From positions 1-64,000 of IMG/VR virus record IMGVR_UViG_3300025117_000061: 64,000 nt of DNA; one strand, 5' to 3'. A program made the translations under genes and the position numbers. The notes under the pieces are model-generated. The model made no database searches, had not been told where the DNA came from, and saw only the letters and a program-made list of their open reading frames with translations. Position 1 is the stretch's first letter; each line of letters starts with the position of its first letter. Source of the DNA: a virus. Shown piece after piece: positions 7,366-10,287 of the stretch.

Positions 7366-7499
7366 ACCAAATTAAGCACGGGAGCCTCCGTTATGGCATT
7401 TTTTATTTGCAGACAATTATTTAGCGCCAAGGGAGGCGGTAGCCGAAAGGCCCGCGGGCTTTGCTTAAGCCTGGCATCCCCTTGGCGCTTTTTATTTTT
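7366..7499 (+). ncRNA. Structured leader or small RNA ending in a terminator, upstream of an HNH gene
   Basis: An 11 bp stem pairs AGCGCCAAGGG (7423-7433) with CCCTTGGCGCT (7479-7489). Inside it are GCC-GAAA-GGC (7442-7451) and GGCTT-TGCTT-AAGCC (7457-7471), so the whole is a three-way junction. It is followed by TTTTTATTTTT, so the outer stem can act as an intrinsic terminator. With the promoter at 7331 this gives an RNA of about 130 bases. The HNH start is 26 bases downstream, so the element may be an attenuator, or a separate small RNA. Confidence 0.5.
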
Positions 7500-7514
7500 C
7501 TGGGGGAGACAATT

Positions 7515-8054
7515 ATGCCGAAAAACAATGATGAGATAAGCCTGTATCGCACCTGGAACACAATGAAGCAACGGTGTTACAATGCTAAGAGTAAAGATTA
7601 TAAATACTATGGTGCAAGGGGTATCGCTATTTGTGAGGAATGGAGAAACAGTTTTCATATCTTCAAGAAAGACATGGGGCTGAGGCCTTCTCCAGGTCAC
7701 ACCATAGACAGGATCAACAACGACGGTAATTATTGTCTCGAAAATTGTAGATGGGCGACACGTCGGGAGCAAAACGAGAACCGTAAGCCCAACCACAGTT
7801 CCACCCGTAGACCTTACTGTAAGCATATTCCTTCATCTCTACGAAGGGGAGTAAAAATATCCTACCAAATAGCCAGCCAAATAAGGGCATCAAGGGCCGA
7901 CGGCGTCTCCGTCAAGGACCTACATAAAATATATAAGATCAGTAGTCAGATGATTTCCCTGATATTATTAAATCGTTGCTGGCACACCGAACTTCCTGCG
8001 GGGCACATATTTCTTGACGTGGACGGGAACCAACCGCACCACACGGGGGCATAG
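7515..8054 (+). CDS. HNH homing-type endonuclease
   Basis: 179 residues after GGGGGAGACAATT-ATG. The N-terminal 80 residues hold the phage HNH pattern: RTWNTMKQRCYNAKSKDYKY, YGARGIAICEEW, then TIDRINNDGNYCLENCRWAT with the conserved Asp/Arg and Asn. Proteins of this type cut DNA and often move as free-standing homing genes. The C-terminal part (VKDLHKIYKISSQMISLIL) is a helix-turn-helix-like DNA-binding segment. It sits between small early genes and a DNA methylase, behind its own promoter and terminator, as expected for an inserted mobile gene. Confidence 0.85.
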   Translation: MPKNNDEISLYRTWNTMKQRCYNAKSKDYKYYGARGIAICEEWRNSFHIFKKDMGLRPSPGHTIDRINNDGNYCLENCRWATRREQNENRKPNHSSTRRPYCKHIPSSLRRGVKISYQIASQIRASRADGVSVKDLHKIYKISSQMISLILLNRCWHTELPAGHIFLDVDGNQPHHTGA

Positions 8055-8068
8055 TTGGAGGATGAGCA

Positions 8069-9613
8069 GTGCCAGTCTACTATAACGACATAGATCCAAT
8101 CTCATGTGCAGTGACCAGAGAGCTAATTCAGGACGGGCTATTGCCGAAAGGATACGTGGATGAGCGACCAATCCAGGAAGTACAGGCAGATGACCTTGTG
8201 GGGTACACTTGGGCATCGTTCTTCAACGGCTTCGGGGGGTGGGTCCACGCCCTTGAGCTTGCAGGATGGCCGAGAGATCGACAAGTTTGGCTCGCGTCCT
8301 TGCCATGCCAGCCATGGTCTTGCGCCGGCAAAGGAGAAGGGGAAGCCGACGAGCGTCATTTGTGGCCCGTCTTCCGCGATCTCGTTGCTCAGTGTCGCCC
8401 TGACTTCATCCTTGGGGAACAGGTGCCGGGAGCGGTTGGGAAGGGTTGGCTCGATGGAGTACGACATGACTTGGAAAATCTCAACTTCGCCGTTGGGGTG
8501 GTCGTACTCCCAGCTTGCGGCCAGGGCGAGGAAGAAGCCATTCTTGTACTTGGGGAAGACGGCTTGCGGGAGAAGAGTGTTCTCGTCGGGCCACCCCACA
8601 TCCGACAACGTTTATTTTGGGGAGCTGTGCGGGTGGCAGACGTGCAAGGCTCACGATGGGGAATGGAGTTCTCCAAGGACGAGCGGAAGACCCATAGAGA
8701 AATCGACGCACCTACAGACTCAGGTTCAGGCTTGTCTGGCGGGATGGCCGACTCCGAAAGTTCAGGAAGCGGAATCCAAGGAGAGGCCAAGTCGGGCGGC
8801 AACCGGACGGACTACGGAGTACCTGGGGAGACAGGTTCAGGGATGCGTCCTAACGGGATGGAACACAACCAGAGCGACAGACTGCACGAACGGGGGGCCG
8901 AATCAGGCGGGCGGTGCGCTGCCGGCGGATGCTGCGATGATCTGCGGATACCCAACGCCGAGAACGATCACGGGCGGCGCGGAGAGTACGGAGAGGAAGC
9001 AGGAGCTTGGCAGGACGGAGAGCGGCGGCGGGGACTTACAGGCTGTTGTGTGCTTGATGGACGGATGGAGAACGCCCAACGCTCAGATGATCGAGCCGAA
9101 GGGCAATGTGACGAAGCTCTGTTGTCGGACTCCGCAAGACCCACAAGTGGGATTGGCGGATCAAGTTGTGATGGTTCAGGGGTGGTGCTCACCAATGGCG
9201 CAGGACCACACGCGGGGGACGGCTCCACCGCGCCCGCAAGACTCAGGGGTCCCACTCAGTCAGCAAGTATCTGGTCTGACTATACCATCGTCACCTGCCG
9301 AGACCGAACCAAGGACGGAATCCCCAAAGCCAGGCGCATCCCAAGGCAGATTGAACCCGGCATTCTCCGCTGTAGCGCTGATGGAATTCCCTATGTCGTT
9401 TCTTCTCTCGGCTCACCGGGCAATCCTGAAATACAACGTTGCGAAGAAGGCCGCGAAGAAGGGGAAGTCTCCACGTTCCCGCTCAGCCCCAAAGAAGCGT
9501 GGCAAGGAAGCAGAGTCGGGCTGTTGAAGCTGGCCGGGAACGCAATCAACTGCAAAATCGCGGCTGAGTTCGTGAGAGGATTCATGGAGTGTATCAACAG
9601 CGACGCACAATAA
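8069..9613 (+). CDS. DNA cytosine-5 methyltransferase
   Basis: 514 residues after GGAGGATGAGCA, starting GTG. It transfers a methyl group from S-adenosylmethionine to cytosine C5. Visible family motifs are FFNGFGGW (about 51-58, motif I), LPCQPWSC (78-85, motif IV with the catalytic Cys), GEQV (116-119, motif VI in a variant form), QRLFW (motif VIII) and, near the end, LAGNAINCKIAAEFVRGFM (motif X). Between motifs VIII and X lies a long polar, low-complexity target-recognition region of about 230 residues that includes repeated ADSES, NAEN and MENAQ phrases. Much of the gene is also open in the +1 frame (next entry). It may protect the phage genome from host restriction (inference). Confidence 0.9.
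   Translation: MPVYYNDIDPISCAVTRELIQDGLLPKGYVDERPIQEVQADDLVGYTWASFFNGFGGWVHALELAGWPRDRQVWLASLPCQPWSCAGKGEGEADERHLWPVFRDLVAQCRPDFILGEQVPGAVGKGWLDGVRHDLENLNFAVGVVVLPACGQGEEEAILVLGEDGLREKSVLVGPPHIRQRLFWGAVRVADVQGSRWGMEFSKDERKTHREIDAPTDSGSGLSGGMADSESSGSGIQGEAKSGGNRTDYGVPGETGSGMRPNGMEHNQSDRLHERGAESGGRCAAGGCCDDLRIPNAENDHGRRGEYGEEAGAWQDGERRRGLTGCCVLDGRMENAQRSDDRAEGQCDEALLSDSARPTSGIGGSSCDGSGVVLTNGAGPHAGDGSTAPARLRGPTQSASIWSDYTIVTCRDRTKDGIPKARRIPRQIEPGILRCSADGIPYVVSSLGSPGNPEIQRCEEGREEGEVSTFPLSPKEAWQGSRVGLLKLAGNAINCKIAAEFVRGFMECINSDAQ
8160..9527 (+). CDS. Long overlapping +1-frame ORF with GW-TP repeats inside the methylase gene
   Basis: 455 residues, wholly inside the methylase gene in the +1 frame. 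AAAGGA lies seven bases before its ATG. The product is not random: it carries repeated units GWPTPKVQEAES, GWNTTRATDC, GYPTPRTITG, GWRTPNAQM and GWCSPMAQDH, then SQGRLNPAFSAVALMEFPMS and a basic tail (KKAAKKGKSPRSR). From memory, similar overlapping proteins occur with other phage methylases; I could not check this. Conserved repeats in a frame that must also encode the methylase recognition region suggest true dual coding. Function unknown; a shadow kept open by composition is the alternative. Confidence 0.5.
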   Translation: MSDQSRKYRQMTLWGTLGHRSSTASGGGSTPLSLQDGREIDKFGSRPCHASHGLAPAKEKGKPTSVICGPSSAISLLSVALTSSLGNRCRERLGRVGSMEYDMTWKISTSPLGWSYSQLAARARKKPFLYLGKTACGRRVFSSGHPTSDNVYFGELCGWQTCKAHDGEWSSPRTSGRPIEKSTHLQTQVQACLAGWPTPKVQEAESKERPSRAATGRTTEYLGRQVQGCVLTGWNTTRATDCTNGGPNQAGGALPADAAMICGYPTPRTITGGAESTERKQELGRTESGGGDLQAVVCLMDGWRTPNAQMIEPKGNVTKLCCRTPQDPQVGLADQVVMVQGWCSPMAQDHTRGTAPPRPQDSGVPLSQQVSGLTIPSSPAETEPRTESPKPGASQGRLNPAFSAVALMEFPMSFLLSAHRAILKYNVAKKAAKKGKSPRSRSAPKKRGKEAESGC

Positions 9614-9648
9614 CCCCCACGCACATGTGGGTTGAGAGGGGAGATGAG

Positions 9649-10287
9649 ATGACACTTAAGGACAGAATCCTGAGAGCTTGCAAGGCTGATTCAATTCCAG
9701 AAGGCGAATCCGGGTTGTGGTCGGTCAACAAGTTTGTCGCAGAGACGGACATCCAAGGATTGAGAGGAGACAAGGAGGAACTACTTCCGGCAGGCAATTA
9801 TACCTACCTTCGCAGGCTTACCACGGGGACGATGCACCGAAACCCGCCCGGCGAAATCGTCATGGAGGACACGGACGTTGAACTGCTGAAGCACATGAAC
9901 TTTATGCTCAAGGTTTACGGTCGAGTCTTAGTGACGGGTCTTGGCCTGGGCTGTGTAGTTCGCGGACTTCTCATGAACCCCGCCGTTGAATCCGTCGTGT
10001 GCATTGAGAGATCTGCCAACGTGCTCAAACTCGTTCGGGACTACATGCCGAAAGAGCGGTTGACCGTTATTCATGCAGACGCCCTTGAATGGACCAAATC
10101 AAACAGTGAGCACTTCGACTGTGCGTACCATGATCTTTGGACCGACCGGGAAGCTGGCGAGCCTCACTTGCAAGTTTGGCACGGTAAGCTGTTAAAGTAT
10201 TGTCGCAACATAGCGAAGCTTCAAGGTGCTTGGGCTTTCCCTCATCAACTCAAGCGAGCCTATGGGCGCCACATAGAATTGGCGTAG
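9649..10287 (+). CDS. Class I SAM-dependent methyltransferase-like protein
   Basis: 212 residues from the ATG after GAGAGGGGAGATGAG. RVLVTGLGLGCVVRGLLMNP is a glycine-rich SAM-binding loop, followed by VVCIERSANVLKLVRDY (acidic residue closing the second strand) and VIHADALEW (adenine-side Asp), in the spermidine synthase-like order. The substrate cannot be told. It follows the cytosine methylase directly, so another DNA or small-molecule modification is possible. A short hairpin (CCCAC/GTGGG) lies in the gap before it. Confidence 0.75.
   Translation: MTLKDRILRACKADSIPEGESGLWSVNKFVAETDIQGLRGDKEELLPAGNYTYLRRLTTGTMHRNPPGEIVMEDTDVELLKHMNFMLKVYGRVLVTGLGLGCVVRGLLMNPAVESVVCIERSANVLKLVRDYMPKERLTVIHADALEWTKSNSEHFDCAYHDLWTDREAGEPHLQVWHGKLLKYCRNIAKLQGAWAFPHQLKRAYGRHIELA

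Follow-up and report, generated by a model that had tools for sequence, protein, structure and literature searches.

The methylase locus described here very probably encodes a single cytosine-5 methyltransferase in two overlapping reading frames, whereby frame 0 (alpha) would contribute the catalytic motifs and motif X, and the +1 frame (beta) the recognition region and motif IX. It lies in a 64,000-base stretch of viral DNA, hereafter the window, which corresponds to positions 1-64000 of a 76,110-base virus record. Comparison of relatives showed, at the level of sequence, that beta is under selection and that its start region is marked; assembly of the two chains, and methylation of DNA by alpha and beta together, are predicted from these comparisons. 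Under the proposed mechanism, the catalytic motifs and motif X of alpha would be joined by a spacer that is open yet unselected, and beta would have its own translation from an internal ATG with a ribosome site. An array of 30-45-residue GW-TP units in beta would replace the target recognition domain and be followed by motif IX. The chains would then assemble into one active enzyme in which each unit may read a DNA target of its own, and protection of the phage genome would thereby extend to several sites.

Layout of the locus in the window

The features of the locus are listed in Table 1. In profile searches alpha matched PF00145 (E 1.2e-8) and phrog_363 (E 1.3e-51), and beta matched phrog_1008, labelled DNA methyltransferase (E 2.9e-20), with no Pfam match for beta. 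The preliminary description had reported a +1 ORF of 455 codons whose ATG is preceded at seven bases by AAAGGA, and both were located as claimed. All five of the GW-TP units that it named were found, preceded by a sixth (GWQTC, 8631), and its LNPAFSAVALMEFP and basic tail were likewise present in the +1 frame. The phrases it had noted in the methylase frame overlap these units: ADSES (8747-8761) with GWPTP (8742-8756), NAEN (8954-8965) with GYPTP (8946-8960) and MENAQ (9065-9079) with GWRTP (9063-9077). The alpha-frame phrases and the beta units are thus a single DNA repeat set in two readings.

Table 1. Features of the overlapping methylase locus, with positions in the window
Feature	Position	Strand	Basis or remark
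Alpha, cytosine-5 methylase frame, 514 aa, GTG start	8069-9613	+	ORF list, PF00145, phrog_363
Beta, overlapping +1 gene, ATG to TGA, 455 codons/aa	8160-9527	+	ORF list, phrog_1008, relatives
AAAGGA, Shine-Dalgarno-like site for beta ATG 8160	8147-8152	+	Spacer TACGTGG, seven bases
Alpha motif II-like YYNDIDP	8078-8098	+	
Alpha motif III-like VDERPI	8156-8173	+	
Alpha motif I FFNGFGGW	8219-8242	+	
Alpha motif IV PCQPWS, catalytic Cys	8303-8320	+	M.HhaI profile match
Alpha motif VI GEQV	8414-8425	+	M.HhaI profile match
Alpha motif VIII PHIRQRLF	8594-8617	+	M.HhaI profile match
Alpha-frame spacer with ADSES/NAEN/MENAQ	8618-9347	+	Relatives: open, unconstrained reading of beta array
Alpha motif X LLKLAGNAI	9521-9547	+	
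Beta N1, N-terminal, over alpha motifs I-IV	8160-8369	+	Relatives: kept open, protein unconstrained
Beta N2, helix and GSxxY hairpin	8370-8537	+	Both frames constrained in relatives; codon bias; confident AF2 elements
Beta unit 1 GWQTC	8631-8741	+	Type shared with L179
Beta unit 2 GWPTP	8742-8855	+	
Beta unit 3 GWNTT	8856-8945	+	Type in 20 loci including L018 and L022
Beta unit 4 GYPTP	8946-9062	+	
Beta unit 5 GWRTP	9063-9179	+	
Beta unit 6 GWCSP and linker	9180-9347	+	Type in 11 loci
Beta motif IX-like RLNPAFSAVALMEFPMSF	9348-9401	+	Divergent in window copy
Beta basic C-terminal tail	9402-9524	+	

The window copy departs from the rules of the family in two places, namely the V119 codon (GTG) and motif IX, which has one additional residue and a G changed to E. 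Its activity is therefore unsure, though the +1 frame is open. Some 21 extra codons (approximately 8528-8590) separate alpha motifs VI and VIII; this insertion is open in both frames and was absent from the other 14 aligned relatives. Immediately before the methylase comes an HNH endonuclease gene (7461-8054; phrog_3377, E 5e-42), a possible homing neighbour, and the last 25 bases of alpha are shared with a second methyltransferase-like ORF (9589-10287; phrog_15480, E 1e-24).

The +1 frame is kept open across the family

Openness of the +1 frame was compared with synonymous shuffles that retain each gene's own codons. In the window methylase 466 codons lie between +1 stops, a length that none of 2000 within-gene shuffles reached (their mean was 163 and their maximum 412). 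Nothing unusual was seen in the +2 frame, which was equalled or exceeded by 1322 of the 2000 shuffles. Relatives were fetched by alpha alone, avoiding any choice based on the +1 frame, which gave 80 viral and 79 bacterial-genome loci; alpha was full in 72 and 75 of these respectively (147 in total), the other 12 being partial or at a locus edge. The 147 loci held 73 (34 + 39) stops in the +1 frame where shuffles predicted 524 (254 + 270), and 98 of them had a stop-free +1 frame against 5.7 expected. No such depletion was seen in the +2 frame (1887 stops, 929 + 958; expected 1809, 892 + 917). A larger set of 219 unique loci, mixing those fetched by alpha with those fetched by beta, gave 86 +1 stops against 583 expected and 2055 +2 stops against 1974 when grouped at 80 % alpha identity (161 clusters). 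A full beta match within one ORF was present in 210 of these 219 loci, beta-fetched loci included. Counting against the two-chain reading, the +1 frame of L004, the nearest distinct viral relative of the window copy, extends for only 232 codons.

Such an opening could in principle be a side effect of methylase codon bias and GC content, given that the examined loci are GC-rich (0.50-0.71) and that some single genes are open by chance (e.g. L005, 258 of 2000 shuffles). We give this explanation almost no credence, as shuffles of the genes' own codons predict a sevenfold higher number of stops, the +2 frame conforms to expectation and selection is frame-specific; at the family level, it is refuted by these sequence comparisons. 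The overlapping +1 frame is, on the same kind of comparison, strongly supported as a conserved second gene. The suggestion of overlapping genes in the preliminary description was thus checked against homologues for +1 stops and for a lack of excess conservation in that frame, and it survived on both the stop deficit and the frame-specific selection.

A marked start region for beta

Stops in the +1 frame were not depleted over alpha columns 1-30 (401 against 284 expected), began to fall over columns 31-40 (35 against 53) and were nearly absent from columns 41-175 (10 against 418). The onset of stop avoidance coincided with a cluster of ATG codons preceded by Shine-Dalgarno (SD) sites, and an SD and ATG pair was present in 177 of 219 loci compared to 79.7 expected. 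SD-like sites accompanied the ATG itself: at column 37 one was present in 77 of 118 loci with an ATG and 5 of 101 without, and at column 31, the start used in the window, in 47 of 93 loci with and 10 of 126 without. The start codon is not fixed, with an ATG at column 31 in 93, at column 37 in 118 and at column 41 in 74 of the approximately 219 loci. An ATG over alpha Asp31 as universal beta start was ruled out, the codon being GAT in 97 of 186 loci. We infer that translation of beta probably starts separately from that of alpha, at an internal ATG served by a dedicated ribosome site.

Each half of the locus is dominated by selection in one frame

Selection was measured as observed over expected amino-acid changes in 32 of 33 pairs of relatives, the expectation being the same substitutions placed at random. 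In N1 (32 pairs, as for all ratios below) alpha, which has motifs I-IV there, gave 0.36, and beta and the third frame both gave 1.12; protein-level constraint on beta N1 was accordingly not found in these pairs, which counts against the two-chain reading. In N2 the ratios were 0.64 for alpha, 0.83 for beta and 1.14 for the third frame. The order was reversed over the unit array and spacer, at 0.56 (0.51-0.62) for beta, 0.96 (0.91-1.00) for alpha and 1.07 for the third frame, and over motif IX, at 0.57, 0.84 and 1.18 in the same order. These ratios indicate one dominant frame per half of the DNA, with true double constraint in N2 and motif IX.

Codon positions gave a similar picture. Spacer differences fell at beta codon positions 1, 2 and 3 in numbers of 938, 845 and 1483 under a protein-guided alignment (33 pairs) and of 584, 549 and 935 under a frame-neutral DNA alignment (31 of 33 pairs). 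Differences between independent close pairs followed the codon pattern of alpha over motifs I-VIII and that of beta in the spacer. Codons that are silent in alpha were frozen where beta is conserved, for example V119 as GTT in 213 of 219 loci, P111 as CCT in 187 of 213 with Pro, G311 as GGG in 203 of 208 with Gly and L308 as CTG or TTG in 209 of 211 with Leu. In two loci, in-frame stops interrupt the alpha spacer (two in L083, one in L229) and beta is intact; motif X would there need reinitiation, or the gene is decaying.

The preliminary description considered both frames to be organised. This holds for dual constraint over a stretch of about 56 codons and over motif IX, but not for the repeat stretch, where only the +1 frame is constrained. 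Its assignment of the recognition region to the methylase frame is reversed by these results: since only beta is constrained across the GW-TP stretch, ADSES, NAEN and MENAQ are by-products, and the recognition region, together with motif IX, sits in the +1 frame.

The unit array

In 188 betas with findable borders the array comprised 0-6 units at a median spacing of 36 aa; two or more were present in 169 loci, one in 18 and none in 1, and the window has six. Recurrence of unit types was measured in 187 betas. Between betas whose N-terminal parts are less than 50 % identical, types recurred in 140 pairs, 96 of them at different positions. The type of window unit 3, for instance, is also carried by L018, although the N-terminal parts of the two betas share only 25 % identity, and differences within this type fell mainly at the third codon position of beta (0.43 compared to 0.17 and 0.06). 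A repeated type within an array was seen in 0 of 163 arrays, where random drawing predicted 6.8 (sd 2.5). The vocabulary comprised 263 types at 60 % identity, of which 22 were found in five or more loci. Types that recur, are free of position and are never repeated behave as interchangeable specificity modules would, rather than as a structural tandem repeat would, and each unit may carry one DNA specificity.

Catalytic motifs in alpha and a probable recognition region in beta

Alpha carries motifs II/III, I, IV, VI, VIII and X and lacks motif IX. Its match to an M.HhaI profile covered motif I and IV-VIII and nothing further, and its C-terminal part matched motif X. Binding of AdoMet and provision of the catalytic cysteine, established roles of the motifs named, thus fall to alpha. 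When alpha was aligned with host methylases, its FAGIGG-like motif I followed the equivalents of II and III (8078-8320), giving the order II-III-I-IV, which is seen neither in canonical m5C methylases nor in the second lineage described below.

When E. coli Dcm was combined with 10 host methylases, the resulting profile aligned with beta at motif IX only ('RRLTPRECARLMGF' with 'GQLNPAHSRWLMGLP'), at E 0.03 to 0.037, with 1 of 150 column shuffles scoring as well. The 10 host methylases were picked from 24 candidate ORFs by their motif IX pattern, a choice that favours the very motif being sought. E. coli Dcm alone gave nothing useful against the beta profile (hhalign), and the beta profile of the window family had no match among 11 cellular methylases.

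Single-chain phage methylases provided a test free of that fault. In gp66 (L435) of Mycobacterium phage Batiatus, one chain holds motifs I-VIII, LPTP units, IX and X, the units lying between VIII and IX. The profile phrog_1008 covers beta and also gp66 residues 168-437 (E 4.3e-72), and the window-family beta profile matched gp66 residues 248-397 (E 7e-5). A beta profile aligned with a single-chain methylase profile over the units and motif IX (hhalign E 1.6e-10, score 80.7), compared to a maximum score of 20.0 in 60 column-shuffled profiles. The matched region comprised the GW-TP units and LNPAF... of beta and corresponded to the target-recognition region and motif IX of gp66. These profile alignments show beta to be a homologue of the recognition-IX part of the single-chain methylase.

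An AF2 model of a single-chain methylase (range 1-438) superposed on M.HhaI with a Z of 22.0 over 258 to 259 of 327 residues, and its unit array was unstructured. Beta modelled alone (L158 and 106 other rows) was weak, with a mean pLDDT of 61.7 and pTM of 0.31. A Foldseek search of the PDB with this model returned no match at E 0.001; four were returned from BFVD at the same threshold, namely a Methyltransferase (Edwardsiella phage eiDWF), an uncharacterized protein (Xanthomonas phage FoX4) and two without a name. The weak model and lack of a PDB match mean that beta alone lends no structural support.

Relatives and intermediate arrangements

In a second lineage, the start of beta lies four bases after alpha, and the betas of this lineage and of the window lineage are homologues (E 1e-39). 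Alpha and beta stand in tandem in Streptomyces phage Samy (SAMYPH_49/50), Gordonia phage Upyo and Mycobacterium phage Katalie136. In L356 and L375 motifs IX and X are both in the beta frame, and the alpha of L356 stops after motif VIII. Split relatives of gp66 had beta in the +1 frame in five of six cases. Sorting of split forms by regular expression was rough (18 of 62 loci fell under 'other'), as was an earlier sorting of 120 loci (38 'neither', 24 'edge'), in which many loci fell under 'neither' because PCQDIS escaped the pattern used for motif IV. In six ORFs the supposed motif IV proved, on reading, to be a chance string such as LPSQA.

One mycobacteriophage methylase (L443) is 98.9 % identical in DNA to a single-chain form (L436) and is split by a one-base insertion that places beta in +1, which represents either a sequencing error or a natural switch. 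A group of small, distant methylases (L299-L305) has alpha ORFs of 231-318 codons and a +1 beta of about 230 aa with a single HTPT unit. Among 80 beta-fetched loci there was no stand-alone beta without alpha nearby (79 with a full alpha, one at an edge).

The family is widespread. The beta of one relative matched 221 INPHARED records, including epsilon15, BcepC6B and eiAU, and record titles point to phages and prophages of many phyla, including Verrucomicrobia, Planctomycetes, Bacteroidetes, Nitrospiraceae and Proteobacteria. Phage annotations are mixed: alpha is often named, the beta frame is sometimes listed, as in PMG1, where the annotated CDS lies in the beta frame, and some records name neither by function.

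Comparison with known systems

Among Bacillus phages, SPR, phi3T and rho11s have multispecific m5C methylases that carry several short target-recognising modules per enzyme. They resemble the present family in having several recognition modules between motifs VIII and IX, but they are single chains in a single frame. Batiatus gp66 likewise has the same TP units and motif IX as beta, but with all motifs in one chain and one frame. The tandem genes of Samy, Upyo and Katalie136 share a beta-like second gene in +1 relative to alpha, for which the Samy depositors note phrog_1008; they differ in being adjacent or barely overlapping, and in a beta that holds the C-terminal motifs including X.

The methylase M.EcoHK31I recognises YGGCCR, and Lee, Kam and Shaw reportedly found in 1995 that its small polypeptide is encoded within the gene of the large one in another frame. 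It would share with the window a second polypeptide inside the first gene in a different frame, and it fits the overlapping products that the preliminary description had tentatively mentioned for other phage methylases. As described in PMC3404938, motifs I-VIII and X are in its large subunit and IX in the smaller polypeptide, the same motif layout as here. The introduction to that paper places its predicted TRD in the larger subunit, whereas here the recognition array is in the small overlapping one. The same paper describes M.AquI, whose second polypeptide has motifs IX-X together with some of the recognition region, an arrangement resembling L356 and L375, with IX and X in beta; in the window, by contrast, alpha keeps motif X and is overlapped by beta over most of its length. 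The ShiLan element, described in PMC11855218, is an HNH endonuclease concealed in another frame of phage methylase genes. It shares the presence of a second frame within a phage methylase gene but is a homing insertion of unrelated function, whereas the second frame here would be part of the enzyme. No description of the phage family as a dual-frame enzyme was found in searches of a library of PMC papers. M.EcoHK31I is the nearest known kind, from which the family differs in its overlapping-chain recognition array and wide spread among phages.

Alternative readings of the two frames

Beta might provide motif IX only, as reported for M.EcoHK31I, with the GW-TP units a linker and target recognition residing in alpha. 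The predicted TRD of M.EcoHK31I in its larger subunit (PMC3404938, introduction) and a conserved alpha stretch ahead of motif X (DWLxCRDGKW) favour this arrangement, but it is unlikely given that the units are conserved in the beta frame, that their types recur independently of position and are never repeated in an array, and that the single-chain relative has its units between motifs VIII and IX. A programmed +1 frameshift that fuses alpha motifs I-VIII to the beta array and motif IX, in place of two separately initiated polypeptides, would restore the single-chain order of gp66 and suit the +1 position of beta in five of its six split relatives. We consider it improbable: stop avoidance and SD-ATG pairs begin near alpha codons 30-40, N2 is constrained although it lies upstream of any such junction, and the fusion would lose motif X.

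It is marginally less probable still that the +1 protein is real but has another job (e.g. as an inhibitor or regulator of the methylase), its recognition likeness being a relic. In favour of this, the model of beta alone has no solved relative. Alpha, however, has no constrained region between motif VIII and its C-terminal part and no motif IX, both of which beta supplies; moreover, the beta frame of L356 and L375 also carries motif X, and the alpha of L356 ends after VIII. The two-chain enzyme, with catalysis in alpha and recognition in beta, is the favoured reading. Apart from the points already named, it has against it the variable start codon of beta, the weak model of beta alone, the unstructured units in the single-chain model, the confinement of host methylase matches to motif IX and the divergence of the window copy.

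Origin and implications

As to how the two-chain enzyme arose, we lean towards reciprocal overprinting, in which a single-chain multispecific methylase would have been split by a +1 shift and the frame of each half extended across the other. Under this scenario two genes would occupy almost wholly the same DNA, with alpha constrained in the catalytic half, beta in the recognition half and both at once in short stretches only. The family also offers many natural examples of long overlaps between genes on the same strand, each half being dominated by one frame, and may inform the origin of overlapping genes.

Phages use methylases to shield their DNA against restriction by the host, and the range of hosts that can be entered depends on methylase specificity. 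If the recognition half lies in an overlapping frame that annotation often omits, cloning an annotated Dcm gene by itself would give a product without activity, and work on specificity would be directed at the wrong protein. Many 'complete' Dcm annotations in phages would then be catalytic halves only. Specificity would instead be encoded in a frame that frequently goes unannotated, as a series of exchangeable one-target modules that could be decoded, and the vocabulary of units makes the idea of one target per type testable.
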